Assembly: GCA_008360955.1 (NCBI GenBank)
Contig: LUCM01008935.1
Coordinates: forward strand, 48,775 to 112,774
Reading direction: 5' to 3'
DNA length: 64,000 nucleotides
From: Fasciolopsis buskii
Taxonomy: Eukaryota; Platyhelminthes; Trematoda; Plagiorchiida; Fasciolidae
Positions within the stretch are counted from its first letter, which is position 1; each line of letters begins with the position of its first letter. The notes under the pieces were generated by a model. The model ran no database searches, was not told where the DNA came from, and saw only the letters and a program-made list of their open reading frames with translations. Positions 2,491-46,735 of this stretch are shown piece by piece. The position numbers and the translations under genes were made by a program.

Positions 2491-4215
2491 CTTGACATTT
2501 AAGCATCCCGTAGAGGACTTCGTTGTTTGGATGAGAATATGGTCATGAACCGATGATTTTCTTGAACTTATTAGAAGTGATTAGTTTCTTGTCTCACGGC
2601 GATTAGATTCCATAGTAAAGATTCTATCCGAATGGAATTCCATTGGTCAACGCACTTGGAAAGTACGCTTTTATCACTTAAGGAGCTCCTTCTTCCATTG
2701 TGGACCACTGGACTTATCGTTCATAAACATATCAATGCTGACCACTTGGTTCCAAATTGCAAGTGGACACTTTGTTAGCGACCATTCTAATCCCCTAAAG
2801 TACACTGAATTTTCATCTCTCAACATGAGTGTTCTTTCACCGCAGTGTATTAGGGCAGATCACCGGTCGTTTATCCTATTCATTTGTACGGAATGCCCCA
2901 GGGAACAATTCAGTCATCATGCTAGGCTAGCAACATGATGGAGGGCTCCTGGACTACCAGCAGTACAACGGAGATTGGTGTTCAAATGTATACTGGAATA
3001 CGAATAAAGCTAAGCTGAGCAGGTGATGTTCAAACACAGACAGCACCGTGTATTTCGGTCTTTTGGTACGTGTGGTGGACAGTGAGCGAAATTATTGAAG
3101 TATTCAATTTCTGATTTTAATGGCAATGACGCGAGCGTAAGTCAAGTGGAAATGATACTTTCGGGAGCATGGTAGACCTTATGATGAAACCGTGTACCAC
3201 TCGATTTATTCTCACTACGACTAATTCGAGTGAAAACTGAAGGGCCATGGGATTTCAGAAAAGTAAAGAATTTGTATTTCCGCCAAACTGTTTGTTTCAT
3301 TGTTCAAATGCACTGAGCCCGATTGAGAAACCGGGTGTCAAATAATCCAGAAGCCACACGCCAGTAGACGGAATCCAACCGGATGCATTCCACTTACCGG
3401 GCAAATGCTTTGCCAATGTGTCCGGGATGTCGTACGCGGACTCAAATAGGATAATTGGCCATTTTTCAAGCGATACTTCAATCAGTCACAGGATTGGCCA
3501 CGTCGATCATTTTCTAATAGTATTAAACAACACAACCGAACAGGATCGAACATAGATTTTCATTTGTTTTCGAGGTGGTGGTGTCATGAGCCTCGTGCAT
3601 GGAATGAAAGCTCCCCATAGGCACTATGGAGTTTTTCTGTTTTGCAAGACTAAATTATCGACTCGCAAACTTAGTTCATTTGCTCCGTACACCCAGGTGA
3701 GAGTACTGCAAATTCTTAAATTGCTATGGAACACTTTTTCTCATGATATCTGTAAGAGGAAGTTTTCGGCTAACGAAGCATTGACAACTAGCAATGAGGC
3801 TTGGCAAAAATATGGCTTTTGTTCTTCCGAAAGCAAAATAGTTTTGCACCAATGGTCTTGCTGCATGTCTCCTAAGGAAACTATTCAGTATATACGATTT
3901 CCTCTTCACAATAGAACGAATCAAGCTAAGCTACGACGTGTTTAACTTCGGAAACTAAGACAAGACGTGAAAGGAAAGGTTACCCCTGAGAACGGACAAG
4001 GTGGTTCGTTCATATGTTCACGGAGAAAGCTGTGCGCTTTTAGGGCGCACCCGTTTGGAAACTTGCAGTAAAATGGCACTGGTCATAACGGATCGAAACC
4101 AAAATCGTAGGAATTTTACGAGATCCGCATTGTTGCACACTACACAAACAAACGAGGAGGAACAAAAACAACACAACCAAGTAGAACATCGACTAACAAA
4201 AGAAACAAAATTCCA
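2491..4215. other. Intergenic DNA, no gene recognised
   Basis: The region contains a 119-codon plus-strand frame with an ATG at 3586, but its product has no recognisable domain and no splice or polyadenylation context. It may include more decayed retroelement sequence upstream of the minus-strand remnant at 2140-2490. Nothing else is supportable. Confidence 0.4.
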
Positions 4216-4540
4216 AACCCTTCGTCTTACATAGGCTACCTACTGAGAATGCATCTAGCAGTAGGAGTCGATTGCTTGCGTTAGCGGCCCGTGACCACGC
4301 AAACAAATTAGTGACAGTCAGGTGCATTACCATCATGAGTTAAATTTGAACAGATGTTTGAGAGAGTAATGGCTAAGGCGTTCGACTGAAAATCGTTTGT
4401 CTCGGATTCGCGTCCCAATTCTAGCCAAATGGATATGCACTGTTGATGATTCGTAACAAAGATGAAGCAGCTGTACAGTGCTTTCTTGGTTTCTTTATGG
4501 TAATTTGTGCGGTGATATCACATGGTCAATTATCTCGCCA
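4216..4540 (+). mobile_element. SINE-like family A element, decayed copy 1
   Basis: Homologous throughout to the tandem units at 18676-19477: shared blocks include the 'CTTCGTC..ACATAGGCTACCT' head, the tRNA-like segment with AGTAATGGCTAAGGCG and GGATTCGCGTCC (about 4363-4430), the hammerhead-like segment at 4432-4485 and the tail with GGTTTCTTTATGG. Divergence from the other copies is high, so this is an old insertion. It sits on the same strand as the other full-length copies. Confidence 0.8.
4432..4485 (+). ncRNA. Inactivated hammerhead-ribozyme relic in family A copy 1
   Basis: Helix I is still paired (GCACTG 4437-4442 with CAGTGC 4476-4481), but the core is mutated. The first core block reads TTGATGA instead of CTGATGA, the second reads GAAG instead of GAAA, and stem II has a G-A mismatch. 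Loss of invariant core bases predicts no self-cleavage. Confidence 0.65.
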
Positions 4541-5570: not shown

Positions 5571-8500
5571 TCGCCTTCCTCTATTATCGTCAACGTGCAC
5601 TCACCTACTTTGTTCTTTCTGCCATCAATAAATGGACTATTAGTGCTAACCTAAAGAACGAAAATTTCAAAATTAGTGTTGTCTTATCAGATTAAGCGAA
5701 ATTTAGCGAAAAGCTTTTAATTCAACGAGATTTTCAATGGTGCAAAATGCACATTTTCCGATATCTTTTACGTATTTGCCTACTTCATGATTGTTCCTCT
5801 TCTGACATGGATAAGAACCCAGTGGTTTCAAATCCTCTTTGCTTGTTCTATTTCTTTGAAAGCATCATCGCAAAAATACCAGCATGCTCCTCGAGGACAT
5901 GGTGAATATGAATATATATACACTATATATGCATATATATTTATATTTGTATATACATACATACCCCGTCGTGATGATGTTCACAATCCCGTTGCTGAAT
6001 GCTAATCGATAAAACGAGTGGACTTTGTGCCCATCGCTTTTCTCAGTCCTCTTGCCAGAAAGATTGTAACACTTTTAAAATCAAATTGAAGCCACTATTC
6101 AAGTCAGTTCGATGTATTCGATACATTCTGTTCGTGGGTCCAACCAATAGACATCCTCGGGTACTTGGGATAACCCTGGTGACCAATGCTTCTCATCAGA
6201 CATACTTAGAGCTTATGTAATCCCATGCGACCTGATGTTCAAAATTCGCAATTTTTTGGCGCATTCAGTACGCTGAGTTTTTAGACAATCTGCATATATC
6301 TTGTCCATAGCACTCATTCGTCACATTTGAAACAATTGTTTGTTCACATGACACGATTTACATCATCACGGAATTTCCGTGGCGGTTCTTTGCTCACTAA
6401 TATCGAAATTAGGATTTTCTGATCTCGATTAGATCGGATCTTGGTCACCTGCGTTCGGCCGCACTCGATGACAGTGAAATCCATCGGTGATCTGGTACGG
6501 GCGGACTGCAGACATGTATCGCAAAATGACAAAACAAATGTGCGCATTTTCGTCGTAACTAGATAGAAACAGTTCAGAGCTGGCATCTAAGCGATATCAT
6601 CCGTCATTAGGGAACCTGATGTTGAGGCATCAATATGCTCAGATTTCGAAATAGCCATAAGCGATGCTTCCGGTTCATTTCTCCCCCATTATTGCTGCAT
6701 TCAGTGATGTTCTTCATCGTTCCCTTTCCGTTTAATGGTACTCGATCAGCAACTTTGACGTTTTTAGGACAAATTTTTGACCAACGAATGATAATTTTCA
6801 GTTGAGATGTGTAATCTCCATTATCCAACCTGAATCGTAATTACGTGAAAAGTAATTTGATTAATTATTTGAATTTATCATCAAATAATCGTGCAATTCT
6901 GACCAGTTGAATGGAAAACTATTCTTCGCCCAACTCGACTAGCCAGGGATAACAAACGATGGAAACACTTAGACAACTTCCTAGCCTCACCCTACACTAC
7001 AAAGAAAGCAATAACATCGTAATTTGGAATGCATTCCAGAACTAACTACGTTGCAACTGATTCGGGAGATGAACTATTTATTACCTCTCGGTATATTCTG
7101 TCTCAATTTTTTTAATATTGGCTTTACTGTTCAGGAAAACATAATTTTTAACGATTCCGATTATTTTATTTCTGTATTGTGTCGGCAAATGGTCCCGCGA
7201 AGATAAGAACCGAGAACGAGAAAGACATAAACTGTGGCTAAATATTTTGTTGAGTTGCTGCATTATTTTATATTCTATCCTGTTAGCAGGGGTAATGATG
7301 CAGCGACGACTGCAGCGATCACCATGCTCACGGGTCTCCATTGTAGACTCTGTTTTGCTTCCTAATCTCGGGGACCAGACTAGTTAACATTTTGAACGGT
7401 CATTGGCCGATTATCGGTTAGCTAACAGCGATTAGGGAAATAAAAGTATCTGTGGTCCAGCAAATATTCGCTGAACGGTCGGCTGTCCTTGAACCGAACG
7501 ATATTTTCACGTTCGTAGTTACCACATTTGTTTTCGTTTGGATTGTCCTGATAGGATTTCGTCGGGGCATTTCTCTATTTGTAGCTGTTTTATGGGATAG
7601 TATTCGAAGTAATCGGAACATAGCCTGTGAACAGAGTGACTATCAGTGTTTGCTAACCCGTACCTACGTGCCGGGAATAGTTCCCGAAATAACGCCAACT
7701 GGACAGTTTTAACGACAGCACAACGAGATTGAGCCTCAGAAATTAGTAATATGTTTGGCACATTGCCAAGCATCCTACGGCAATAATGACAACAACAGTA
7801 GAGTGTGCATCACGGTTAACAGTGCCAACAATCTAGCTTCAGACAAAAGCTGTTTTCTTCTTTAGGAAAACTCACGTTATGGTGCCAGGACACGTGACTG
7901 CACCCCTAATAATGCGCACATAATGTGGCCTTTTAAGGTATAGATTACGAATATAAATTTTACCAATTCACTTCACAATCTGTAGTCGGATTAAAGCCGC
8001 AAGTTCTTACACAAAAGCCGGGGACCGGTAGAGGACGGGAAAGCCTGAGGTAGTAACATAAACAAACACATCAAACACAAGTCTGGACGATAAAATAGTG
8101 AAGTTGGAATAGCAAACGCTTGAGAGGACAGTATGATAATTGAGAAAAAAAATCAGTGTACTGGTTTGATTAGTTCTGTTCACCAGAAAAAAATAATCTG
8201 TTGTTCACAATTTCGTGATACATCTAATCTGCATTGCTGATTTTCGGTCATACTTTTTTATCTAGCCCTTCATTCGGATTGGCCTGCCAGGAGTCTTCCT
8301 ACGAACAAAGTAATATTATTGTTTTCACTGGTGCTGACAGTGTGACAGTCATGGATAGTTTATTCGTGATAAAATTTAATATTTAATGCACTTGTTGGGA
8401 TGTATATCAGAATTATTCAAACGATTTCTTTCTACTCATAAATGATATCGAGTTTCCACGGAATTATTCATTAGGCGATAGTAACGCTCAACTCCCTTTA

Positions 8501-9738
8501 AGAAATCATGTGAGCACTATGCTTTTGTTCCACCCCTTTAGGAATCGAGCTCGGAAGCGAACTCGGTACGAAAGATTACGAGTCTAAAGTCTTATCCCCC
8601 AGGCTACTGGTTACTAATTTTCTTTGGGTTGAGATGTTGTCAGAAAAAAACGGAATAGCAAATGAATCCGGATTAGGTATCACTTTTGCAAAGGTATTTG
8701 TGGTCGGAATTGCTTTTATTTTCTCTGCAGAACTGATCTGTGTGAACGTGTTTGCAAGCTGTCCTTAAGTTGCATTAGGCATACCTGATATCAGCAGGGA
8801 TCCACGTGATACTGCGCGCAAACTCCATGAAAATCATGAAACGTGGTGCAAGCATTATCACTTGGCATACCGTCGCCCTGACGATAGGATAAATAATCAA
8901 GCGAATCAGGTTGTAACAGGAAATCGGCGATCAGTAAAAACATTCGCTCTAATGGATTTGTTTTAGTGCAGCGGATAAAGGCATCTGACAAGCAGTCTTT
9001 TTGAGAACCAGTGATGAGTGAGTGAAAAAGTTAAGACGAATATTTCTCCAGAAGCGGTAGTCAGAAAACTTCGTCATGAACCGTGTGAAAGATAAAAGGT
9101 GTATTACAAAACCAACCCTAAAAAATCAAAGATAAGCTCGCTGAAATCAGAATTCCGTCCGGAAGAGTCAGCACAACAGCTTAATTTCTGAAGAAGTTGC
9201 TGTCCACATTTGTCTACCGGTGTTTACATCCATGTACATGCAACTGTGAATAAAATTGAATGAATCAAATCCTTGGCAATTATTGGATCACTTAGGGCAA
9301 CACTACCCAGCTGATGGAATCACTAACACTTAAGGTAAGCGAAATGTGCTGTGAAAAATCAGTTTTATTTCAGTCTCAGTCACTCAACTTCTTTGTTCAC
9401 TCGGCGATGAAAAACGAGCACCGAAACGTGGAATTTGTGTCTCCCTACGGAGCGTACGAAAGTCGTATTTACCACTGCCATCACCATCCCTGAAGTCGAA
9501 CTGTTCACTCAACCGGAATTCCATGTGTCTCGGGACCGTGTACCAAAAATCTATTTATGCAATCTCTGATTACATGACTGATGTAAAACGAATGAGAAAG
9601 TAGTATAATTCTGTATAGATTCAAATTGCCTTGGAGTTTTTCTGTTTTTTTATAACCACATGCTTCGTTTGTTGTTAAGAAGGCCCAAGGCATGCAGTCT
9701 TTTTTTAAGCGCGGAAAACCCAAGCCTTCGTGACAACG

Positions 9739-14274: not shown

Positions 14275-14641
14275 AAGCAAATGTTAGTACATCAAGTAAA
14301 ATGATTCATACACATCCCGGCCTGGAATCAAATCGGGAACGCCCATCTTGAAAGGATTTACAACTTGATTTGCCTGTAATTACTGTATTCAATGCGACTT
14401 CACTGAATTTGCAGACACGACTCGGCTACACATTAACTGCAAGTTGATGTATCTGCGACAGAAAATAATCAGCTTGTGGTTAATACGTAGTCGAGTCGTT
14501 TCTGCAAGTCCAGTGAAGTTGCGTTGAATACAGTAATTAAAAGCAACTCGAGTTGTAAATCCTTTCAAGATGGGAGTTTCCGATTTGATTCCAGGCCGGG
14601 ATGTGCATGAATTATTTGACTTGATGTACTGATATTTGTTT
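14275..14641. mobile_element. Long fold-back (inverted-repeat) element, about 367 bp
   Basis: The two halves are inverted copies around a centre near 14458: AGTACATCAAG, CACATCCCGGCCTGGAATC, CATCTTGAAAGGATTTACAA, AATTACTGTATTCAA and GACTCGGCTAC in the left half each recur as reverse complements, in mirrored order, in the right half. Identity is roughly 85 percent by eye, with only about 14 bases unpaired at the centre. There is no coding capacity and no obvious target-site duplication. It is best called a MITE-like or fold-back element. The divergence between arms argues for an old insertion. Confidence 0.85.
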
Positions 14642-16720: not shown

Positions 16721-16919
16721 GAATGATATAACGTTAATAATACATCGGATGTTGGTAGATGTAATTCGCCAATGTTTCGACTGCCGTGGGTAGTCTTTCT
16801 CAAGACAAGTTTGTTTTTGATTGTAAAACTTGCCTTGAGAAAGACTACCCACGGTAGTCGAAACGTCGGCGCATTACATCAACCAACAACGCTGTATTAT
16901 TAACATTACATCATTCACA
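16721..16919. mobile_element. Short fold-back palindrome, about 199 bp, with nested mini-hairpins
   Basis: The left arm 16721-16812 and right arm 16826-16919 are inverted copies at about 90 percent identity with a 13-base loop. Each arm holds a second, smaller hairpin: GACTACC-CAC-GGTAGTC in the right arm (about 16842-16860) and its counterpart GACTGCC-GTG-GGTAGTC in the left arm. There is no coding capacity. The structure is that of a fold-back element or a palindromic duplication of a short repeat. Confidence 0.9.
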
Positions 16920-18596
16920 ATTAAAACCAATACACGGCGCATCGATTTTTTGATATATTCCTTACTTCATGCGGTTCTGAAATTGTCTTACATTGCGTAG
17001 ATTTCATTGATTATGGGTCTACTAACAACTTAAACATGTGAAACTCCTCATCAGGAAATCACAACCAATACAAGATGTTGCAATATTTTATTCCGTTGGC
17101 ATTTTCACTCTAATCCTTTTCCACATGATGCTGGCAACCTCGCGACTAACATTTCCAGATTCACTTTATTGTAGCACCTTCTCACAGTTCATCTCTTTCT
17201 TTCCCGAAGTGCATTGGTCAACATTGAAGTTTTTGAGTAGGCAAGGAGGCGAAAATTTCTCGTAGAAAGAAAAATCGGGTTTCGTATTTCATATCAAACA
17301 AAGTTGGTTTTGCCTACGAAACAATGGTTGTTCTGATTTCTGTAGACTTCATATTTGTGGCGTTCGGCTGAAAAAACTATTGATGAGAACCTACGCCGTG
17401 ATTACTTCTGCCAACAACCTGAGAAGCGACACTGAAATTTGCTGTCTTGAGAAATGATATTCCGTCTAGTTTTGTCCGGAAAATGAAATCTGCGGTTCTA
17501 ATTTACCGCGTCCATTTCACTGAATGAATTTCCACTGATGATTCTAAGAGGAATTCCATTCGAGGTTTCTACAAATAACAACAAGGTATTCCTGGAACAA
17601 ATGAGGTCAAATCGTCCAAAACAACGAAATGTTTTCTTTGGATTTGGCTTTATCAGTCGAATAGCATTTACGTCCACTTTCCGACACCCAGCATTATGTA
17701 CAGGAATCAGAAAGAATAATCATAAAGCTACTTCCGAACAACTCGGCGATGAAGACCGCTCAGGCGAAGTAAATTCTGTCCGATGCCTCAAGAGGAGTGC
17801 ATTTTTATTCACGTAAATCTCTACTGATGTTCATGTTCCCAGGCTTGTGTCTAGAAAGCTAAAATCATGACTACGTGAAGCTAAGCGAATACAAAACTAA
17901 GTGGAGAATAAATCTTTCGTGAACGAGGGGTATTTCCGATCAAGGTGTTGCATTGCCTAGCTGCTCGTACTAATTTTACCTAACTGTTTCGTTACCGACA
18001 GAAAATTCCAAAATACCAGGTCTTTTTGTGTCTTCGGAGGTGCAGCCCTGTTCAATTGGATCAGTTTTGCGGCCGAATCTTTTTTGTATTCGAGTAAAAA
18101 TGTTTTATTGCTTCTTACTTCAAATTCATTTTTCTTTTCTTTCATGAGGGCTTTTGTGATCGAACAAATGTCATTTGTCTGGTGATTATAGGAATGTGAA
18201 AGACGATTTTTCGACAACTACGGATTATGAAAAGCCTTACCACGTATCCTATCCCAATCGTCTGTTATCCGCATTTTCAGTATCACCTTGAATACATAAT
18301 ATGCTGTTTTTTTCTACACACATTTGTCATCCGGGACTTCACCGGACCTTCAGGCCGTTCTTTATCTCTGCGGAACTCTCGGCTCTATTTTATCTTCCTC
18401 AAGCGGTTTGCTACAGATTTGTCAAGTTCAAACTTCCATCCAGTTTGACGCAGTAGTAGTAGTGGAACAACATCAATAGGAATACTTAGAGCGCGCCACT
18501 ATAAATTCTCCGCGCAAAATTAAAGTTATTATTAGGAGACTGATTGTTTTCATGGAATAATTTACCATGAGCTATCATCGCTCAAGTGACGATTAG
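16920..18596. other. Intergenic DNA, no gene recognised
   Basis: A 92-codon frame at 17538-17816 and an 86-codon minus-strand frame at 17957-18217 have no recognisable domain. Nothing else was seen. Confidence 0.4.
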
Positions 18597-18675
18597 GAAA
18601 CCATGGAAGCACTGTGCAGCTGTTACATCCTTGTTAGGAATCATCAACAGTGCATATCCACCACGCCCGAACTGG
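18597..18675 (-). mobile_element. Inverted fragment of family A abutting the tandem array
   Basis: This 79-bp stretch is the reverse complement of the 3' part of the family A unit (end of the tRNA-like region through the hammerhead segment), matching 18954-19032 with few differences. It stops exactly where the first tandem unit begins. Read on the minus strand its hammerhead segment keeps helix I and stem II, but the core reads TTGATGA and GTAAC and the cleavage triplet reads GCA, so it should be inactive. Confidence 0.9.
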
Positions 18676-18889
18676 TGAATAATTTCAAGAGAACATTCAA
18701 TCTCCTACTACTAACATCAATCAAGCTCTGTAGGTTATATCCTAAGCCTTCGTCGTACTCAGGCTACCTGCAGAGAAGTCATCTATCAGTAGGGGTCGAT
18801 CGCTGTCAGGTAACGGACAGTAACCGTGCAAACCAGTGACGGATAGGTGCAACATCATGTGGTGAAGTTCAACAAACCGTTCAGAGCCT

Positions 18890-18964
18890 GCCCGGTAGCG
18901 TAATGGCTAAGGCGTTCGACCCAGAATCGTTCGTCCTTGTTTGGGTTCGCGTCCCAGTTCGGGC
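18890..18964 (+). promoter_or_regulatory. tRNA-Arg-like domain with Pol III A and B boxes, unit 1
   Basis: Acceptor-like ends GCCCG and CGGGC pair. The A box is TAGCGTAATGG (18896-18906), followed by CTAAGGCG as in tRNA-Arg. The B box is GGTTCGCGTCC (18944-18954), matching the GGTTCGANNCC consensus except one position. The anticodon arm is degenerate, so this is a tRNA-derived promoter, not a functional tRNA. Confidence 0.85.
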
Positions 18965-18968
18965 GCGG

Positions 18969-19025
18969 TGGATATGCACTGCTGATGATTCCTAACAAGG
19001 ATGAAACAGCTGTACAATGCTTCCA
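18969..19025 (+). ncRNA. Hammerhead ribozyme motif (type I layout), unit 1
   Basis: Core block CTGATGA (18982-18988), stem II TCCT-AACA-AGGA (18990-19001), core GAAAC (19003-19007), a very short helix III closed around AGCT, and a GTA cleavage triplet predict cleavage between 19014 and 19015. Helix I is GCACTG (18976-18981) with CAATGC (19015-19020), one mismatch, extended beyond a TAT/T bulge by TGGA (18969-18972) with TCCA (19022-19025). All invariant core bases are present. Weak points are the short helix III and a T-T at the first stem II position, where natural hammerheads usually have G-C. Schistosome repeats carry active examples with the same domain order. Confidence 0.75.
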
Positions 19026-19285
19026 TGGTTTCTTTATGGCGAGTTGAGTGATGATATCACATGGTGAATTATTTCATGTAAACATTCAATCTCCTACTAC
19101 TAAAATGTATCAAGTAATCAAGCTCTGTAGGTCATATCCAAAGCCTTCGTCGTACTTAGGCTACCTGCAGAGAAGTCATCTATCAGTAGGGGTCGATCGC
19201 TTGAGCTAGCGGACAGTAATCGTGCAACTCAGTGACGGATAGGTGCAACATCATGTGGTGAAGTTCAACAAACCGTTCAGAGCCT

Positions 19286-19360
19286 GCCCGGTAGCGTAAT
19301 GGCTAAGGCGTTCGACTCAGAATCGTTCGTCCTTGTTCGGATTCGCGTCCCAGTTCGGGC
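19286..19360 (+). promoter_or_regulatory. tRNA-Arg-like domain with Pol III A and B boxes, unit 2
   Basis: Ends GCCCG and CGGGC pair as in unit 1. The A box TAGCGTAATGG (19292-19302) is intact; the B box reads GATTCGCGTCC (19340-19350), one base weaker than unit 1. The hammerhead domain starts 5 nt after its 3' end. Confidence 0.8.
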
Positions 19361-19364
19361 GCGG

Positions 19365-19421
19365 TGGACATGCAGTGCTGATGATTCCGAACACGGATGA
19401 AACAGCTGTACAGTATTTCCA
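19365..19421 (+). ncRNA. Hammerhead ribozyme motif (type I layout), unit 2
   Basis: Core CTGATGA (19378-19384) and GAAAC (19399-19403) with a GTA triplet predict cleavage between 19410 and 19411. Stem II is TCCG-AACA-CGGA (19386-19397); the loop-closing pair is G-C here but T-A in unit 1, a compensatory change. Helix I has weakened: GCAGTG (19372-19377) against CAGTAT (19411-19416) contains mismatches, although the outer TGGA/TCCA pairing remains. Core conservation suggests an ancestrally active ribozyme, with activity of this copy less certain than unit 1. Confidence 0.7.
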
Positions 19422-19615
19422 TGGTTTCCTGATGATGAGTTGAGCAATGATATTACATTGTGAATTAGTTCATGAAATTACAGTTTGAAGTAACAGCAAC
19501 AAACTGAACCATGGGCACAGCAACAGTCCCAGTATTAAACAATTGCATGCAACAGATGACTGTGTAGAATAATTTGTTTAATATTCTCCAATTCAAATAA
19601 ATTCATACAAAGCGA

Positions 19616-25728: not shown

Positions 25729-26289
25729 TAGAGGGGTCATTCCAACACAGCGCTCTGGACCGCTAACAATAATCTGACTGTGATATGTCTTAGGAGTAAA
25801 GCGGTTTTTTGCGGCAAATTTTCGAAAGTCAACGTTAGTGCACCGGGTTCGGGACCTCTTCCCGTGTGCCATTTTCCGATTTCGGTGCCATTTGAACGAC
25901 CGCTGTAGCCTTCCAAAAGTCCTTGTACACTCTTCTTTCTTTCAGACAGTGAAAGTAAATAATGGAGCATGCAATTAGGCTAGATCACGTGGCCTTTTAT
26001 TCCAGTGGAAAAACAGCACATTTTGTCCGCTTTTCTCAAGATTTCTTAAAAGTGAACAAATTGAACGGCGTTAATCAACGACCGATTCAATTATGGCATA
26101 TTTTTTCAGCCAGGCTTTTATTTGAGCAATTAAGTTGTTTAAATGATGATAAAATAACCAGAAGTTTTTTAAGAAATAATTTTCTACAAGTCATTCCATC
26201 ACGATATGCTTTCGTACACGTTCTCACATGATCGTTGCAACGTATTGCGCTTGAGAGTTAACGAGAATAATTTTTGTCTGGATTGATTT

Positions 26290-26291
26290 AG
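26290..26291 (+). other. Possible splice acceptor before the coding start
   Basis: GATTGATTTAG precedes the coding exon and could end a 5'-UTR intron or serve as a trans-splicing acceptor. A stronger pyrimidine-rich acceptor (TTCTTTCTTTCAG) ends at 25945. Which is used cannot be told from the sequence. Confidence 0.3.
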
Positions 26292-26325
26292 GAAATTTCA
26301 AATTGAAGTGGGAACAAACGTAAAT

Positions 26326-29300
26326 ATGCCACCTATTGAATCTGGATTACCCCAAACATATGCTGGTAGCGGATCGGACGATACAGCTACTTCGACCCCT
26401 AGCCGACAGTTGGAATTGCCGACAAGGGTTCTCACTGGTTTTTTGTTTTTTGTCCTGGGAATCATTATTCTACTTTTGCTTCTCGTGATCACTGTGGCCA
26501 CAGTTGTGACGAAATCCAATTGGTGGATTCGTCGACGGCGTACTTGTCAAAGACGAATGGATTATGCGGGTGCAAAAAAACCGATCCCATTAGAAGAGAA
26601 ACTGTTCTACTATGCTGACATTGTGTTGGATGCTATCGCGTTGCATTGGAGTGACGAAGATTCCGCAATGACTGGCAAATCGGTTGGAAAACCAAAAATT
26701 GGCGAACTGGTCGGGTCAGATGGCACCCAGCTTCCTTTACGATTTCAACCGGAAAAACTGTACGGTGCAACTAGTAATGTTCATCGGGAGAGTATGAGAA
26801 AACGCAGTTCGTCCTTCCTGTCGGTTCAGCCTCAGTCTGATGGACAGAGAAGAGCATCAATGGTTGATAGTTTGACATTTCTCAGTCCAACAAATCGCCT
26901 GAAGTTCGGAAAATCTACTAACGAGCAAACTGCCCACTTGCCAGATTACAAGTTGGCTTACCCACAGCTGGAATCTACGAAACCTGCCAAGTGGAATACG
27001 GAAGCACTTCCGTTGATCGATGTAACATTAGACAAGGATGAAACCGGTACTGGAGACGAGGCTGACGGGGTAGATGATTCACGTTCGGATCGTGAACAGG
27101 ATGCTAATTCGATTTTGTCTATCGCAGTTCCCATTAGACGTGCCTCAGCAACAAATATCCCAATGACCGAGTCCGTGTTAAATCGCCGGGCCAGCTTCGC
27201 GGACACATTAAGAAAGCCTCAAGTTCCAGTGATCAGCCTCCCTTCGACAACAGATGACGAAGAACTAGGTAAAACAGAGAACAGCGAAAAAGAGAGAAAT
27301 ACACTGTGTCCCATTCAAACCAACCTAGTTAAGAGAAACAGCATGGTTGAAAATTTGTCTAACTTTCGCAGCATGCATTTAACTTCGCAGCCAGATGCTT
27401 CGTTGACTGATACTGAACTGTCAACAGTGACGCAACTTAAGGAAGGTCAAGACAAGGCAGAACTTGAACAAGGAGAACATAGGTCGCCAATCAGTGTGGC
27501 TGAAAGTCCCAGAAAGTTGCCCCATCTACCACCTCTTCGCAATGTTGAGTCACCAGCTGGACAGATGGCATTAGCTATCAAACTCGTCGAGGACGCGAAC
27601 TCCACGAACGACAAGCTGGATATACATTTTATATCGGGGAAATTGCTGAAATCTCCACGTCCTTGGCAAAAAGGGAGCTTCATTCTAAAATGTGCATTCC
27701 ACTCGTTGCATCATGTGCAACACAGCACCCTTATTTGCAAAGATGCCGAACTGGGACGTTTGTGTTTTCCCCCAACTGCACATGTCACATTTGACTTGTG
27801 TGATCGTCAATCGAAACAGTGTGCTACCACAATGAATCAATTGAAAATCACTATCGTCGAAGGTGGCTCAAAATGGGGCTCGGGAAGAGAGTATTATCAC
27901 GGCACTGTCAGCATACAACTGTCCGGGATTCAAATTCTCACGGGCAAACCAGAATGGTATCCAATTTCTGCTGCCTATCCGGTAAGTTTTGATATCCCTT
28001 TCGGATGGCCTTCCGCAAAAAGACGATCAATTTATCTAAAAAATCGCATTTTTTCGTGGCATATTCTTCAAGAACGTTATCACTAGCCGTTTGCAGGCAT
28101 CCTCTCACGCAACGTGTGCCGGTCCTAGGAGGCAAGTTGTATTGGGTGATGTTCGCCCACCCAAAACATCTCAAAACAGGCAAATTTTTGAGATAAGATT
28201 TGGTGATTTTCTAAATGTTCCTTCAATGTACTCAGAGGTATTTAGCAAATAATGCTCGGAAAATAGCAAAAAATGCTCGTTATGAAATCTCATTCGATAC
28301 TCCCCGGAAGGAGTCATGCATCGGTTGGAAAATTATCCGAGACCGGGCACAGTATGAGCGATAAATAAATTGTCTGTACGTATCCCACAAACAAAACCCA
28401 GACAGGCAATCTAAATCGACCGTAATCGCACGTTCCAAGTACCCTCACCAGACCGTAAAATATGATTTCAGTCTGTTTTGAGGTTTTGTCGATCAAAGGA
28501 TTAAAACTGCCGAAACCCGGGAAGAATTAAGTGGCCAATGAATTACGTCTGTTTATCTCTGCCCCCAAAGCTAGCGACTTCATTTGATCACATTGATTCA
28601 AATATAATCTCACTCGCTTAATCGAGCGTGAAAGAACGATCAAAATGCAGTCTAACCGGTCAACAAGACCGTTTTGTTTATTTGCCATAATCAAGAGGTT
28701 TATATTAGAACCACACAGGATCCAGCTCATTGACTGTATGTCCCATTCCCCTGACTTATTGCTTTTCCTTTGTTGCGGAATCGGAGCGGATCCACAGTTC
28801 TTCACCCGGCTTCTTGGTTCCCAGACTCTCAAGTGTTTAGTCTGTGCGTCATTGATAAGCATAAATGTGCTAGCCGGCGTGGTCCATGCTCACTCGTCAC
28901 ATCGACATAAAGCGTTCTTGGACTTTTGGCACCGTCTCATTATCCCACCTTACATCCAGTGTGTGCCCATTCTACTGTGAGCCTACCAAGGTTCACCGAA
29001 CTGTTTAACCAAACTAAAGAGTAACTTTTCATGAGGTTCTGATAGCTGAGTTTGAAGTTTGGATCGTAATCGTCTCATCACCAGTTGGGGTGAGATTTTT
29101 ACTCCAAGTCACCTCCACTGGCGCTGAAACGCCAAACTCAGCTATCAATACCCCATAAATATCCACAACCTGAGCTACGGCCAGCACAAACTTTCAAATC
29201 CATCAAAAGTAACTTCTCGGAGAACGCTTGCGGAATTGTTGAAACGGTAAAAAAGCTGTGTAGATTATGCACGCCAGAAATGAAGCGTCCACAGGTGGCA

Positions 29301-32300: not shown

Positions 32301-35300
32301 ATATCATCCGTCGAATCACGATGGAACTTGAGAAAAAACGCGCATTGTTACCACCTGAATCAGGCTGAAACCTTTGGCTGGGGTAAAGAAATAGTGCTTA
32401 AAGAGATGAAATCTGATAATTTGTGTTCATGTCGTTGAGCTTATCTATAAGCCTTCATCGTAATTTATTCGGTAACTGCTGTCTGTTGGTTCACTATTCT
32501 TCTGAACCAACGGTTCGCGTCGATGCAACATTGACAACTGTAAAATATGAAAGGAATTCATCAAGATTCTTTGGAAGTTCAGGAAAACTCTACTGTTCGT
32601 GTGCGAATTCGGAAATGATTGTCCGTGTTGCTCAGTTGAAAATATTTGTTGTCCTAGCTCGAAATTTGCAGCAATTTCTGTTCACATTTTTTACGGGGTT
32701 AAGAAATTGCGCGATATTTCTGTTGTTTAGTCTAACGGTGCACATCATTTGACGGCTTTTTGCGAAGTGGAATTCGCTGCGCTTTAGTTCGTCTTTGGAA
32801 ATGAACGTCCGTTTAACTTAGAATGCATGAAGGGAAAAAAAACGTACCAATGTTCTCTATAACCTCAGTTCCTTTATCCTATTTTTTTATTCTATTTAAT
32901 CGACCAAGTTGCGATGAGACGTTTCTTTCGTAAGCATGAATTTGGGCAAAGATTGCAACTTAGAGACAAATTAAAAAGTTGCTAACAGCTACTGTTTGCT
33001 CGTGCAATCACTAATTACCACTTTTCAATTAAGAGTTATGGCGAATGTTTTATAGATTATAGCGAGACTATTAAAAAATACCCAATAGATTGACAATCGA
33101 ATATCTTGGGAACGTGACTCGGTTATTGCGTGCTTACAATCAAATCAAAATGGAAAAACAGAAGGTCCCAGTTGTCCAGAAGAATATATTTTCCTTAGCT
33201 AATATTATTGATTGGTGGGCAAATAGTTAGGTATTTGCGCGTCCTACTCGATCGATCGAACGAGGTTTTCGTTTTGCTATCATGGAAGGCATTTATAAGT
33301 CCATGCAATAGGGATGGGTACTAGACGTATACTAACTAGTGTAATCGAGTTTTACTAAAAGGGATAGGAAGAACGTTGTAGCCGAACAGTGTTTTTCACC
33401 CAAAGTCCCAAGTGGACCATCTCTAATGGGAAGCGAAATCCTGTGAATGAATTACCGCAGATTACATAAATCCGGCAATATTTCGGAATTTAATGAGTGT
33501 CAGGACCGGGAGCCTTACAAGAGTGGTTGAAATTCACTCCCCTCATGTTCCACATTCCCAAATGTGCGTAAACACTCATGTGAAAGCTCACAAAGTAGAA
33601 ATAAGAGGAGGTGAAAAAAGTACTATCTTAAAATCAGTGTGGTAACAAATTCGACTTGTCTTATCGGGATCAAGTTCGTGAACCCGAATTGCTATAGCCT
33701 CGTTATTGCCGTGCATAGTTCGGACGATTCATGACCCCTCCCCCACCCCTCGGGAGGCTTGGCCCTGATCGACATAAATTACACGGTCCGGTCGGTGACG
33801 GCCAAGAAAAGTGCGAAATACGTTGCACCGTTTGGTTGTTTTCCAGACAATAAGCTGAAATTTCAGTAGGCGTAAAAGTGTGCATGCGATTGTGACGACG
33901 GTGTCAAGCACTTGAATCTAACCTGTTCGGGAATGATGTTTACCTGTGTGTTGAAATTATTTCAACAGTCGTGTGCATGCAAGTGATTATGGTTTGATTT
34001 GGTTTGCGTCGACATACGTAAATAAGATATGGATTAGTAATGATAAGGGGGAAAGTTTTGTTCGGGAAGAGTTCACACCGGTCGATACGATGACCACAAG
34101 CCTACGGGATGAGAACAGATCATAGTTTGAAGGAACGGTAAAATTCAACCGATGACGTTTCTTTGAAACTGGAAGGTCAAACAAGAGAGAAAAGCAGCGA
34201 GCTTTGTATTGAACGCTGGTGCACGAGACAGTTAATTAGCACTCTGTATGTCGACTGGATGTTTTGAATCTCCGAGGGAAATGGGAAAATTCTGTTCACT
34301 GTAGTAATCATTTAAGTTACAAATGATGCTTTTCAGGTCACGGCATATGTTCATCGTAATACCGGGATCCTAAGAGACAGAGAACGTAATTATCGTTCTG
34401 GGACGTATCAAGGCGTAGGATGAATTGGCCTAAAATGACTGTAGGTCACAGAACTAAGCAGGATACCAGGCGAGTTTGTCAGAGGACGCAAAAATGGAAG
34501 TCGATTTTCTGAACACCGGTAAACAAATATTTTCATTTCGTTTTGAAATAAACTACTCAGAATTGGACATATCATTCTTCAGATGTGTAAGAATTTGCCA
34601 TTGGAGGAAGTTGCAGTCATAGGTAATCAAATGCTCCTAAAAGGTTGCACTAAACAAGACCCCATGGACGAATCCATTCGGGTCATCCAATAATGGCTCT
34701 TGCCGATGAGAAATCCTAAAATTATTTATTACCAGACAAGAAATTCTTAGTTCAAAAACAAAAAAAACGGATTTATTAATAAATGCATTTTCGATTGAAT
34801 TCATCGAATGGAGTTTCATTTGGAGGGTGGATGGTTTTGAGAGTGGTATTATTCTCATACAGACAAAAAAAGAATAAAGTAAGCACGTTCATATCACCGT
34901 GAATTCCTAATCAACGGTGACAGGTGGAACGTGATCCAAAAGTATTCTAGCATATTCCCGGTATACTGCTCCCTCGATAGTCTGACAGACAGACTACTGA
35001 ACACTGTGCTCAAAGCTACACATCCAGTATGACTAATTACTGTTTAACGAATCCGCTGGTTAGCTGAACCAATTGTTATCATTGGTTTTCATTTCCCATT
35101 TGTTGCCTAATATAGGTGGCTTTGAAATTCATGCTTGTCTAACCTACGATTGTCGATTGGTCAAATCGAAAAAAAGCGTCTTTCTCCAGCAGCCCAGACA
35201 TGCCCCGAAATCGGAGAAATCTCATTCTGGATTGGAAAAACGGTTGTCTGTGGCTAGCACCAGTCGACGCATGTCGTTTAGTAGAACAGTGAGCGGTGAA

Positions 35301-35633
35301 CATTATTTGCAATTTTCCGTGCCACAGGCAAAAACGAATGTGGGAAAATCAATCTTTGCCAACTACGGGATTGTTTTGTTTGTCACTACCAAATTGCCCC
35401 TGGTCGAACAATTGCCTGCCGATTTTGTGAACCAACTCAGATTGATAGGGGCTCCGGATCCGAAGAGTCTTCAGGCTGTCGGCGAGTGTTTCATTGCGGA
35501 TGAGCCAACCCAATCGGCCTACTGGAGTACAATGAGCTTTAAAGCAAAATGTGATACACCGTGTACGTCTTTGTGGAACGAAGCAGCGAACAACGGTTCG
35601 GCTCGAGCTTATCAATGGTTGACCACAACCTAA
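26326..35633 (+). CDS. Synaptotagmin-like single-pass membrane protein, three exons
   Basis: Exons 26326-27981, 30786-30942 and 35116-35633 join in frame (phases 0 and 1) to a 776-residue protein. The first ATG is at 26326; the upstream in-frame GTG is discounted in a eukaryote, and a TGA lies further up. Residues 35-61 form one strongly hydrophobic helix, followed by RRRR, giving an outside-N, cytoplasmic-C topology. A long polar linker (about 70-425) follows, then a beta-rich region (about 430-550) resembling a degenerate C2 domain. The C-terminal exon ends with a YW (740-741) and LW (757-758) spacing like the HW...WH end of synaptotagmin C2B domains. I see no clear aspartate clusters for calcium binding, so a calcium-independent member (Syt14/16-like) is possible. 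The family call is tentative; the gene itself is well supported by frame continuity across both junctions. Confidence 0.75.
27982..30785 (+). other. Intron 1 of the membrane-protein gene (2804 bp)
   Basis: Donor GGTAAGTTTT at the end of exon 1 and acceptor TCTGTTTAACCAG before exon 2. The reading frame is preserved with no split codon. The intron contains a short inverted-repeat element at 29040-29147 and no recognised gene. Several open frames of about 100 codons on both strands are taken as chance. Confidence 0.75.
29040..29147. mobile_element. Small inverted-repeat (MITE-like) element within intron 1
   Basis: Perfect 15-bp terminal inverted repeats, TGATAGCTGAGTTTG at the left and CAAACTCAGCTATCA at the right, flank a 78-bp interior. 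No coding capacity and no clear target-site duplication. Confidence 0.7.
30943..35115 (+). other. Intron 2 of the membrane-protein gene (4173 bp)
   Basis: The donor AA-GTAAGC follows exon 2, and the acceptor CCTAATATAG precedes exon 3. The split codon A/GT rebuilds a serine and the frame continues. A tRNA-like repeat head lies at 31466-31545. No other gene is recognised. An additional in-frame exon cannot be excluded, because the intron is long and the predicted C2B-like region is shorter than usual. Confidence 0.7.
31466..31545 (-). repeat. tRNA-like repeat head, minus strand
   Basis: Read on the minus strand: GTAGCTCAGAGGTGG resembles an A box, a TCC...GGA anticodon-like stem follows, and AAGTCCGACTCC resembles a degenerate B box. 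The spacing suits a tRNA. The ends do not form a clean acceptor stem, so it is a tRNA-derived repeat or pseudogene. It does not look like the family A or B heads. Confidence 0.5.
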
Positions 35634-39560: not shown

Positions 39561-41800
39561 GTGTACCTAAGGGGTTCACAAATTTGTCGCCGGTACCTAC
39601 CCTGCTCACTACTACGTCTGCTTGATTGGACCCTTAAATGGTTCACCACCATTCACCTCCGGATAACCGTTTCCAGTTTTCGCTTGAATAGTCCAAGAGA
39701 TTACCCACCCAGGCTCGCTGCCAATCTCTGGCTCTCTCTACGCAGTTACACGGTCATCACATGCTCACCAGCCTTACTAACGTTCGCCGACTGGAATGCA
39801 GCTTTGATTCGGCTCACTAGTTTCTGCAGTCATCTTCTCCCCTTGGTTTATTTTCGAGTAAAATGCAAAATCGAGGCTCATCGAATTTCATCCAACACTT
39901 TTGATTTCCCTTTTGTGCCTAAAGGAGGCGTGCATGCTTTTTGTCCATCAGCGAGTTGCAACTTGGCCCATACCATACCTTGGCTTTTCGAACCTCGAGT
40001 TAAAACTACGACCACCTTCCCTCGGTCTTGGCTTTCTTTTCGTATAGTGTCACTCAATGGAGTCGATTTCTTGATGTTTTTGATTTCTTACCCTTAATTA
40101 CTGAACGCTTGCTTGCTACAGACCAGAAAGAATAATATTATATTGGGTAAGTGCAATGCTCACATCCGGAAACGGTTAATGCTATCGTCTGGTACCTTAG
40201 CCATCAGATACGAAGGCGAACAATCAGCTGTTATCAACAGTTTACCTCGACTAATTGAGTTGCCAATACACGCATCCTCCATCGATTTGGCTACAGTAAG
40301 CGCACTGTCGATTTTACCCTCTCTTTCCGTCCTTTGATCCACTCAAATATTCCCATTCTTCCTATCAATGGCCCTTTACGAAATTGTATTATTACGCGCT
40401 TCATTCAATTTGCCCTTGAAAACCCCGACATAGGCTAACTTTGTAATTCAATTAACTGGAACTATTCTCGTAATTTCCTGGCCTCTTATCATTTGAATGA
40501 TTGTCACTTCGTCCATAGTGTTGCCTTAGCTGTCTCTAGTTTCACTAAAACTATTCTTCACCATAGGAACCGTTAATCCACACTTTTCCAAAATCGATCC
40601 TTGTGTCGTTTGGTCAATCCTATAGTGATCACCATTTCGATGCCGAAGATAATGATCCAATTCCGCCTCTCATCACTGCTTTGTGAAAGAGTGGAGAATA
40701 TCCTGGTTAGTCATATTGCCGTGTAAAGAACGATTTGACCGTTGCAAAAACGAACGCTGAATCTCATTTGTCACTCGTTGCCCAATATTTTGGTTCCTTC
40801 TCAAGCTTATCTCCTGGAATTTTTGGCGTTTCAAATCGCCCCCCCTTTTGTAATGCATTTTACTTATGAGTCATTCGAGATTGCAGAGAATTTTCCTCCG
40901 CGTTATGCTCCGGTTATGTTCCTCTTTCGTCTACCTCTATCTCTGCTTTTTATTATCGTCATGATGATTTGGCAGGCTCTGGATGTCCGAAAACCAAGCA
41001 GTTCGGACGGTATTCCACCTGTTGTCCTTAAATAATGTGTCCCACTGAGCTGACCCTTCTGGGGCTCTGTTGTTTCAAGATTCCCCTCATCACCTTACCT
41101 TACCTACCGCTAGGAAACAACTCGAGAATTTCTAGATTTCCGAACGCGGCAATCTCTCTGATCCAAAAAACCACAGCCCGATTTCTGCAACATGTTTTTA
41201 ATGATCGATCCCGTTATCCCAGACAAAGTGATCACTTTGTGAATGTGAAGCGCTACTGATCAACGCCAATATAAATTTCAACAACGCCTTCCACTGGTGA
41301 TCTGATGGCCCTTCGTAAACCTACTGGTGGTTAGAAGTCGATAACGGCACTGAAATACACCTAGTTTTGCTGGTTAGCTTCAAAAGCTTCTACCGAGACT
41401 GGCATGAAGTCTAACTGGCCAGACTTTACAATTTCCCGTTACCGGTATCGTCAAAATCAAGTTTCTTTACCAAGCAATCCATTTCATTCCGGATCGATTG
41501 GGTTCTATCTCTACCGTTCCGTACTCACACCCATCCTTTTCTGTCTGTTTGTTAATGAAAATCTAAGAAGTAAAACCAATACAATTTAGTCTTTTTCTGC
41601 ATATTATACAATATTCTATTGTTCTCTTGGTTATCGCACCCTTTGTCTTGTAAAGACGAACAAACATCGCGGTCGCTTAAAGTTGAGCTCAAATATTGGA
41701 TCTCTCTGCTCTTTGGATAGCAGTAACCATGATGATTTCATTGTTTCCGGTAAAAACGCATTCACTCACTTGGATTCAACAGATATTCAATGTACAAACT
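39561..41800 (+). mobile_element. Decayed non-LTR retrotransposon, Jockey-type reverse transcriptase
   Basis: Broken plus-strand frames carry successive reverse-transcriptase landmarks. Near 40990-41040 comes VRKPSSSDGIPPVVLK, matching the 'kssGpDGIPp.vLk' block. Then 'CPTELT' follows the stop. Near 41350-41410 is SFKSFYRDWHEV, a degraded 'SKAFDRVWH'. Near 41490-41560 comes SVLTPILFCLFVNENL, matching 'GSVLSPiLFllFINDL'. Stops and frame changes separate these, so the copy is dead. A linker-like segment (NSINWNYSRNFLASYHLN) lies near 40450-40500; the endonuclease to its left could not be followed with confidence. These elements encode their own endonuclease and reverse transcriptase and could have mobilised the SINEs here. 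Confidence 0.8.
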
Positions 41801-41944
41801 TTGTCTGTCTTCTTGACCTATGTTTACTTTCTTTGTTACAACGATCGACTTGATATCTCATCCAACTTATCCTGAAGCATGCTAAGCATTGTATTGTGTT
41901 GCATTGCGTACAAGAAATAATGCTCCATTTCAGTCTTGACATAT

Positions 41945-44660
41945 GAGGGTGCATAATAAAATTAGGAAGAAATTAACGCTCATTACCTTGCAAAAACGTG
42001 AGGAACAATCAGAGAACATTATGATAGACTGCGCAGGAATTCAGTTAAAACACGGTCACAGTTTGTCAAAGTGCGTGCTAAATACGGGACGGTGGAATTC
42101 GTTGAGATATTGATTCTCGAGGGTATGGAACGAAAAACGGATCATGCTGAAATACGAGAGCGGGATTTCGAAAGATCGGTGTGCAAAGGATAGGTGGGAT
42201 CTGAATGAATTTTGTGAGCAAATTTCTCGCATGCTGGTAGATTGAATGGCAACTCACTTAATGGTATGAAAGGCACGGCTGCCGCTTGATAGCCCCCGGG
42301 CAAAGAGTGTTAAAGTCATTTCTAAGAAAATTGGGAAAAAATAAGAGAACAGTAAAGAAGGATTGAAACAGTACATTGGCTTACGAATCGGGAGAAGGTG
42401 CTGTGTTTCACCTTGTATTGTCGAATCTTCCTGAGTTGAAATGACAAAAGTCGGAGATTTTTTAAGCAGGTAGAAATGGGTGAAGTCCACCTCATAGCTT
42501 ATCAATAGTAACTCCTAGATATTTCGCAGAATCCCTGGAAGACGTTTTCGATGGGTGGGCCGGCCGAGAGAGAGAACAGATATTGGAAACATTTAGATGT
42601 GTTGAGATTCAAACCAACTCGTGCAGGAAAATCGTAAGNAGAAGATAGATTGTTAGAAAAACTTTGAAAATCATCGTTGTTCGAAAGGGCTTGCGAGAGG
42701 GCAAAATCATCAGCATCCTTTAACAGATGACAGGCTGAGCTGGGTGATAAGTCGTTGATTTAAGTAGAAAAGAGAAACGGCAAAAGAACGGCACCCTGAA
42801 GCACTCCTGAGTTGCTGACCACCAGTTTCAAAGTTTACCGTCCATTCGTGTGCATTGGGTTCGGATAGAAAAGTAATCCGACAGCCACGCTAAGGAAGGC
42901 GGGGACAACCAAATGTTTCCAGTTTGTGAAGTAGAAGAGACCGTGGGACAGAATCCAATGCCGGCGAATAGTCTAGAAAGGAGCAACGAACAGATTTCGT
43001 TGATATGTTAAAGAACTTAGAAATGAGCTGAATATTAAATTTATAGGCAAACTGAAGGGGGTTGCCAGGACGATACATAGAGGAATGCAGCAGTTTAAGT
43101 ATATCATGCTTCGTCAGTTCAAGACCAGAAGATGTTAAGCCGATGAAGTGAAAACGTTTTGCCAATGCAGTATAATTGCTAGATTTTCGGATGAGAATAA
43201 TAGTGACGGATATCCAATAGTCTGGGATAGAAGACGAGCTTAATGATGGGTTAGTTACAGAAGTAAATGCATCGGTCAGAGCCACAGCACTATGTCTTAA
43301 AAGAGCTGAGGACAACCTGTCGGGACCAACCTCTGTGGTAAATTTAGTGGTGCGGAGAAGGTCGAACACCCCTTTCCTGGATAAACTTGTAGCTGTCATA
43401 CCACCACATTGTCCAAATATGGTCGGGTGTCAGTGGAAGGATGGGCGGAGGCACGATTAATGCCGTTGACATCGGCGGAAGTTTTCGTATGATTCTTCTT
43501 CCCACACAACAGTCTAACGACTTGCCACGGGAACCGATTGTTGTTACCGCTCAGGATTTGGCTGGCGAATGTAGTGTCGATGCGTCGGAATTCAGTTTTA
43601 TGATAAGATTTGTGGATGTGCTCCTTGCAACAGTTTCTAGGTAGGGATCTGGCCATTTGAGATGAATCGTGTTTCTGAGGGGCAGCAAATATCAAAAATT
43701 GCGCTAGCCATCTCTGAAAAGTTTGACATTGTCATTGAACAGATTTTCAAAAGAGAAAGGTGGATACCAGCGAAATAGGATTTCTGAAAAAGATTAAAGT
43801 TGCTTTTATGAAAAGCTACGGAGGCTAACTTGGATTTGATTTGTTTGCCTGAAGGAATTGAAAGCTGACCTACAGTACATCTTGAACCTTAACAAAAGCA
43901 GACAATAATCATTACTTGAAATCGGAGCACGCCTGTTCAAGGAAAATAAATCAGGGTGGTTGGTAATGACTCTATCTAAAATGGAGTGGCCTGTGGTGGG
44001 AAAAGGCAGAGATCAGTCAAATCAAACAGTCAGTGGTAAGGTAGATGTATGATTTAAAACACCCACAATATTAGACAGACAATCCTCAGGAATACTAGAA
44101 AAGAGTAGAAAAAAGATGCAATATTTTGTTGCGAGCTAAAGAGGGCAATGTATAAAGTGGTTATGATAGTGTTGTTATGACGAGAAAACCTAGGATGACA
44201 CTGCGTCACGGATATTCAATTCCATTGAGAGAGCACGTATAAACAACTTCGGACTTGCCAGACCAGAAGGAGTTTATGTATGTTGCCACACCGCATCCAG
44301 TCTCCTTCTTGTTCGAAATTCTGTCCTGCCGATGGAGTCTGAAGCTATCTATTGACACGAGCAAATCAGAGATATCCGGGTTCAGCTACGATTGTTGTAT
44401 GCAGATGTCACACGTATGAACATGGATCGTTGGTTGAAGTAAATAGAGGGCGGATATTGGTATTCAACAGTGCCGGAATTGACATCTTGGTTGGAAGGGT
44501 GTATTTAAGAGATGCCTGCCAGTCAGTGCGAGTGCCACTTTTAGATGGATAAGAGGAATTTAGGGGTTCAGCAATGCGTGATCCCAGTTCATGGTGAGAA
44601 AGGAAACGGTTTTAAACAACAATAATTTCGATCGATTTTATCCGCGAACGGAGAACATAA
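41945..44660 (-). mobile_element. Decayed non-LTR retrotransposon, CR1-like, endonuclease to 3'-UTR
   Basis: The minus-strand order is endonuclease, linker, reverse transcriptase, 3'-UTR. Endonuclease fragments near 44380-44240 read DISDLLVSIDSFRLHRQD and TGCGVATYINSFWSGKSE. The linker at 43695-43396 has a WQVVRLLCGKKNHTKTSADVN block. The reverse transcriptase at 43399-42890 holds VGPDRLSSALLRHSAVALTD, IGLTSSGLEL and FLDYSPALDSVPRSLLLHKL (normally FxxY/F-S-x-A-F-D/N). Later blocks are broken by frameshifts to about 42250. The tail 42240-41945 matches, inverted, the 3' ends at 53295 and 63690. The longest retroelement copy here, about 2.7 kb, and not functional. The plus-strand frame at 43441-43644 is its shadow. 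Confidence 0.88.
42639..42639. other. Single ambiguous base (N)
   Basis: One unresolved base inside the decayed retrotransposon. Confidence 0.99.
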
Positions 44661-46603: not shown

Positions 46604-46735
46604 TCTAGGGTGCAAAGCGGTGGATATGCACTGCTGATGATCCCTAACAAGGGTGAGACGGCTGCACAGTGCTTCCATGATTTCTTTATGATGAATTGAG
46701 CGAAGATGTCACATGGTGAATTATTTCATAATATG
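46604..46735 (+). mobile_element. SINE-like family A element, 5'-truncated copy
   Basis: Begins at AGGGTGCAAAGCGGTGGATATG, just after the tRNA-like domain, and runs through the hammerhead-like segment to the GGTGAATTATTTCAT tail. With no Pol III boxes it should be silent. 5' truncation suits reverse transcription from the 3' end. Confidence 0.85.
46622..46677 (+). ncRNA. Inactivated hammerhead-ribozyme relic, truncated copy
   Basis: Helix I is perfect (GCACTG 46628-46633 with CAGTGC 46667-46672) and stem II is strong (CCCT-AACA-AGGG). The first core block CTGATGA is intact, but GAAA has become GAGA and the cleavage triplet GTA has become GCA. Changing the T of the triplet should abolish cleavage. 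Confidence 0.7.

Follow-up and report, generated by a model that had tools for sequence, protein, structure and literature searches.

Hammerhead elements of flukes and other animals

Sm-alpha and Sj-alpha are described, in the available part of the source, as SINE-like schistosome elements with hammerheads (PMC2770079). The hammerheads of the S. mansoni W element have an extremely short stem III, and three of five candidates cleaved in vitro; the two non-cleaving candidates showed damage in the core or at the cleavage site, according to the accessible sections of the report (PMC8490949). Non-LTR retrozymes contain type I hammerheads in tandem repeats of 150-450 bp. Circles were shown in some animals, and platyhelminths are named as hosts of analogous repeats in the portion of that paper at hand (Cervera and de la Pena 2020, PMC7229834).

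At 18969-19421 the window (the whole stretch of DNA that was analysed, 64 kb) contained the type I hammerhead layout twice, in the same orientation and with a spacing of 396 bp. We consider it quite probable that this locus is a tRNA-derived fluke SINE in decay, present as a copy of two units made from a hammerhead-encoding source; broadly taken, such an element is a non-LTR retrozyme. As part of the same reading, the source copies would have carried a type I hammerhead immediately 3' of the tRNA-like region. The element most likely belongs with the schistosome-like hammerhead elements already described; its kind is known, and what it adds is another lineage of flukes and the details of the variant.

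Like Sm-alpha and Sj-alpha, it is a SINE-like repeat with a tRNA-like part and a type I hammerhead motif in a fluke genome, which is a likeness of layout only (PMC2770079, PMC8490949). The earlier note had named Sm-alpha repeats and animal retrozymes as using the same layout and had said that the family looks like a divergent relative; the likeness in layout is the part of that claim which found support. Compared with Rfam Hammerhead_1, whose consensus has a G-C pair, a six-base loop, and GUC, the present motif has a T.T mismatch closing stem II, a four-base AACA loop, and GUA. Its tandem period of 396 bp lies inside the 150-450 bp range of metazoan non-LTR retrozymes, and the type I hammerhead, the low GC (local GC 0.42), and the platyhelminth host are also shared with them, as these are described in the accessible text (PMC7229834). 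Unlike those retrozymes, the element has a tRNA-like part and only two direct units, and it is known here from DNA. The hammerheads of Penelope-like elements share the minimal helix III, the tandem arrangement, and a possible dimeric action, but the tRNA-like part and a helix I prolonged across an internal loop set the present element apart from them in the part of the source available (PMC7761336).

Unlike the host of Sm-alpha and Sj-alpha, the host here most likely lies outside Schistosoma and nearer to Fasciola and Echinostoma, as judged from one protein. The protein search of positions 26287-28083, from the open frame at 26287-28086, gave six hits, the window's own entry included. Identity to FGIG_10629 of Fasciola gigantica was 65% over 93%, and a protein of Echinostoma caproni was 59% identical over 53%; the values for proteins of Clonorchis, Opisthorchis, and Schistosoma japonicum were 32%, 34%, and 25%, respectively. 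Another open frame, 35064-35633, resembled by eye the later part of the FGIG_10629 alignment, which suggests an intron between both frames. By eye, two overlapping minus-strand frames at 42890-43731 had the look of a disrupted LINE reverse transcriptase. Pfam gave no match in five window proteins, which included the frames at 26287-28086, 35064-35633, and 42890-43731. Marked strand asymmetry was seen at 40001-44000 (GC skew −0.17, then +0.22) and at 58001-60000 (GC skew +0.19, AT skew +0.18).

Among the literature matches listed, none joined Fasciola with a hammerhead SINE, and most subscription journals were outside the coverage; publications naming Fasciola, SINE, and hammerhead together concern schistosomes in the text available from them.

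The two-unit array and its tRNA-like part

Tandem Repeats Finder detected a direct array of two units with a period of 396 at 18673-19477 on the plus strand, in agreement with the head-to-tail arrangement which the earlier note had proposed. The type I hammerhead motif of the first unit (U1) occupied 18969-19025 and that of the second (U2) 19365-19421, both on the plus strand, with predicted cleavage at 19014/19015 and 19410/19411, respectively. The predicted monomer between both cleavage sites, 19015-19410 on the plus strand, is 396 nt long, as that note had stated. Within a unit, the body is followed by the tRNA-like part, this by the hammerhead, and the hammerhead by a tail of some 50 nt that ends near TTATTTCATG. 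Identity between U1 and U2 was 95-96% in the body and tRNA-like part, 89% in the hammerhead, and 82% in the tail, and this unequal identity along the unit suggests a mosaic origin.

All U1 elements lie on the plus strand. The outer helix I is formed by TGGA (18969-18972) and TCCA (19022-19025), the inner helix I by GCACTG (18976-18981) and CAATGC (19015-19020). The core consists of CTGATGA (18982-18988) and GAAA (19003-19006). Stem II, TCCT/AGGA at 18990-18993/18998-19001 with an AACA loop, is opened by a T.T mismatch at 18989/19002. CAGCTG (19007-19012) makes up helix III, and the GTA triplet is at 19012-19014. The U2 elements were found at the U1 positions plus 396, with TCCG/CGGA as stem II. 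Between the inner and outer helix I there is an internal loop of TAT against T in U1 and CAT against T in U2. The inner helix I of U1 kept 5/6 pairs and had one mismatch (C.A); in U2 it showed two mismatches (G.G and C.A) and one G.T wobble. For both units, the earlier note had described an intact CTGATGA core, a stem II of 4 bp capped by AACA, a minimal helix III with a GTA triplet, and helix I prolonged beyond a bulge by TGGA/TCCA, and it had listed the helix I mismatches and a T-T first stem II pair as caveats; each of these features was found again at matching coordinates.

The window was scanned on both strands with a hammerhead descriptor composed after the site was known. Its matches were U1 and U2 only, and it gave one match across 200 dinucleotide shuffles of the window.

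A tRNA-like stretch was present directly upstream of the hammerhead, which supports the SINE-like setting named in the earlier note. In unit 1 it spanned 18890-18965 on the plus strand and scored 17.7 bits with the Rfam tRNA family (E 1.3), below the gathering score of 29. In unit 2 it was placed at 19286-19361 (plus strand) by homology to unit 1, with 74/77 positions identical over 18890-18966, and it had no Rfam tRNA row of its own in the 1.1-kb search. An A-box-like TAGCGTAATGG was recognised by eye at 18896-18906 on the plus strand; the best A-box match of the script lay elsewhere, at 18961 (7/9). The B-box-like GGTTCGCGTCC at 18944-18954, also on the plus strand, agreed with 8/9 consensus letters, and the unit 2 B box agreed with 7/9. 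ARAGORN found no tRNA. From 18670 to 19615 the plus strand never shows four T in succession, therefore no simple Pol III stop is present within the array, and a Pol III transcript begun there could pass both hammerheads.

The proposed route for the array runs through transcription, cleavage, circularisation, and mobility. RNA polymerase III would begin at the internal boxes and read across the tandem units. Each hammerhead would then cut after GUA and release the 396-nt monomer with a 5'-OH and a 2',3'-cyclic phosphate, which a host ligase could circularise. LINE machinery would copy the RNA, whether circular or still uncleaved, into DNA again. The circle of the 396-nt monomer showed no unusual stability (z −1.3 against 60 mononucleotide shuffles).

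Family copies and the state of their hammerhead segments

Copies of the unit were sought in the 64-kb window by BLAST and nhmmer. Six family copies were found, five with the hammerhead segment and one damaged (U6); U3 to U6, like the tRNA-like region, go beyond what the earlier note had described. Outside the direct array, U3 is a short copy at 46617-46729 on the plus strand (hammerhead segment 46619-46679), and U5 is a single-unit copy at 4205-4540, also on the plus strand (hammerhead segment 4428-4488). U4 is an inverted partial copy at 18526-18675 on the minus strand (hammerhead segment 18602-18662), and it contains the 3' end of the tRNA-like part, the hammerhead segment, the tail, and the beginning of the next unit. 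U6, at 8455-8607 on the minus strand, is a diverged copy (nhmmer 37.6 bits) whose hammerhead segment lacks its 5' half. The divergence of the other copies from the array units was about 11-27%. A covariance model built from the five copies recovered the same five in the window with E <0.01, and its next match had E 0.2.

U4 lies head-on to the direct array. Positions 18526-18675 and 18954-19103 form a 150-nt inverted repeat with 86% complementarity, therefore a read-through transcript of U4 and unit 1 could make a long double strand. No target-site duplication above chance was found at the composite, the direct array, U3, U5, or U6; AAATTA at 18517/19475 was unconvincing as such a duplication, being equalled by 143/500 random pairs.

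The state of the hammerhead differed among the copies. U1 had a complete core with a single helix I mismatch, and U2 a complete core with two. In U3 the helix I and stem II pairs were perfect (stem II CCCT/AGGG) and CTGATGA was kept, with GAGA and GCA altered. U4 also had perfect helix I and stem II pairs, with TTGATGA, GTAA, and GCA as altered elements. U5 showed a perfect inner helix I and the triplet GTA, with altered TTGATGA and GAAG and with one stem II pair and one outer helix I pair broken. Flawless copies were thus 0/5: an intact core goes with helix I mismatches and vice versa, and CUGANGA, GAAA, and the NUH triplet occurred together only in U1 and U2 (2/5 copies). Decay is visible in every copy. 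In the majority sequence of the five copies, the core was intact and helices I and II were perfect save for the U.U pair, which is expected if an intact source decayed independently in each copy. If activity remains in any of them, U1 is the likeliest to have it.

Four stem II pairs followed the T.T mismatch in U1-U4. They read U-A/C-G/C-G/U-A in U1 and U4; two-sided changes turned the last pair from U-A to G-C in U2 and the first from U-A to C-G in U3. Two such changes were equalled by 23/500 shuffles. The T.T pair itself (U10.1-U11.1) was present in 5/5 copies. Natural hammerheads with a U10.1-U11.1 mismatch have been reported, and this mispair is cited as allowing more cleavage than any other, in the available text of Perreault and others (PMC3088659). 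The same text describes weak stem III as common in natural hammerheads and palindromic stem III sequences as fitting dimers (PMC3088659).

The Rfam search covered 4227 families. The earlier note had set a covariance-model match above threshold beforehand as a test, and 0/5 copies gave one in the 64-kb window: the search returned 0 rows at gathering score, and the best hammerhead copy reached 22.1 bits against the Hammerhead_1 (RF00163) gathering score of 34 bits. This best copy was U1, for which Hammerhead_1 (E 0.016, 1.1-kb search) stood at the top of the 4227 families. U2 scored 13.4 bits with Hammerhead_1 (E 1.1, 101-base search), the lowest E and second by bits; its rival match in that search was a microRNA family with 14.0 bits and E 1.8. 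Hammerhead_HH9 was the top family for U3 (19.6 bits, E 0.0094, 151-base search) and for U4 (14.6 bits, E 0.23, 91-base search). U5 had no Rfam match up to E 5. With E values up to 10 allowed, the 1.1-kb search named neither U2 nor U4 as a hammerhead. The scan of the whole window, taken to E 5, had U3 as its sole hammerhead and did not list U1. Membership of RF00163 is therefore not what we claim; the claim is that the segment probably 'works like a type I hammerhead', the reading which the earlier note had made and which gains from a hammerhead family as the best Rfam match in 3/5 copies and from the two compensatory stem II changes.

Two other Rfam matches in the window were below cut-off. 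At 16775-16863, mir-3938 matched with 54.9 bits (cut-off 94) and another family matched on the opposite strand, so that this is probably a palindromic or repeat hairpin. At 14401-14515, mir-5879 matched on both strands with 34.6 and 32.6 bits (cut-off 97), and this site is perhaps palindromic. Scanning bacterial and archaeal genomes for a 20-base stretch gave eight loci, all Bacteroidota by title, which we took as unrelated, and two pattern scans of viral contigs gave 0 matches.

Competing explanations and biological meaning

One rival explanation is that the hammerhead was functional in the source and that U1 and U2 are both dead, which would make the array a fossil and perhaps the family extinct. 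It overlaps the decaying-SINE reading, differs from it only on present activity, and has about an even chance of being right. Each of the five copies has at least one damaging feature, the copies stand about 11-27% from the array units, and no target-site duplications remain. However, the full core and stem II remain in U1, as do 5/6 pairs of the inner helix I and the TGGA/TCCA beyond them, and a U.U at 10.1-11.1 is tolerated in other hammerheads according to the accessible text of PMC3088659.

The array could also be an ordinary satellite that arose by unequal crossing-over rather than from RNA circles or multimers that were copied. There are just two direct units with a partial inverted one, and their identity is mosaic along the unit, as this explanation would have it. 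The 3' ends of the copies point the other way: U3 ended at the equivalent of 19077 and U5 at that of 19075, close to the end of the array's last unit at the equivalent of 19081. The query in this comparison extended into the next unit, yet U3 and U5 stop there, which is what one would expect of copies made from an RNA whose 3' end is fixed. U4 qualifies this result, and because it extends beyond the common 3' end point it derives from a multimer. Taken together, we regard a satellite origin as rather unlikely.

The hammerhead fold was not the minimum-energy fold in any of the five copies. In U1 it had −5.1 kcal/mol against −15.2 kcal/mol for the best fold, and in U2 −0.5 kcal/mol against −18.4 kcal/mol. 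The energy model leaves the hammerhead core and loop contacts unscored, so the lower-energy alternative fold is a caution and not a refutation. In U1, U2, and U3 the minimum-energy fold paired GCTG, core letters included, with CAGC. Over the five copies, a plain long hairpin kept 95.7% of pair cells and the hammerhead 93.3%, with two two-sided changes each, so the pair counts show no preference for the hammerhead. That the locus is a plain tRNA-derived SINE whose 61-nt segment is an extended hairpin with a coincidental core that never cleaved RNA is nevertheless very unlikely, despite this equal conservation and the lack of an Rfam match above cut-off, since the core agrees with stem II, helix I, and the cleavage triplet, hammerhead models are best in 3/5 copies, the descriptor is almost silent in shuffled sequence, and a tRNA-like part adjoins, as in the known schistosome SINEs.

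For the decaying SINE copy with a hammerhead-encoding source we counted the observed motif, present twice in tandem, its Rfam ranks, the stem II changes, the majority sequence of the family, and the upstream tRNA-like part. The lack of a T4+ run, the U10.1-U11.1 precedents, and the known schistosome and animal type I repeats were also counted for it. Against it we counted that no copy reached the gathering score, the lack of any U5 match up to E 5, the absence of U2 and U4 from the 1.1-kb search and of U1 from that of the whole window, that no copy was flawless, the lower-energy alternative folds, the hairpin-equal pair counts, the missing target-site duplications, the ordinary circle stability, and the ARAGORN result.

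Helix III is minimal, yet ACAGCUGU is self-complementary, and neighbouring units could form a double hammerhead. It is doubtful that a SINE family on the Fasciola/Echinostoma side fixed the U.U pair, which sits at a highly conserved position of stem II, together with the fully self-complementary ACAGCUGU helix III, so that its hammerhead works mainly as a double one between neighbouring units. The longer ACAGCTGT is self-complementary in U1 and U2, and the same eight positions are not so in U3, U4, and U5. The U1-U2 double hammerhead was estimated at −28.3 kcal/mol against −38.7 kcal/mol for the best two-strand fold, and that of the majority sequence at −41.7 kcal/mol against −44.9 kcal/mol. 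If this reading is true, cleavage would depend on the tandem arrangement, and pairing of helix I between units could compensate in part for the mismatches within U1 and U2.

If the decaying SINE copy is what we take it to be, hammerhead-bearing SINEs would be present in a fluke lineage beside the schistosomes. Its natural variants, the U10.1-U11.1 pair found in all five hammerhead-bearing copies, GUA, and the palindromic helix III, would be directly assayable. The Rfam cut-off misses 5/5 copies, and such families may therefore be undercounted in fluke genomes.
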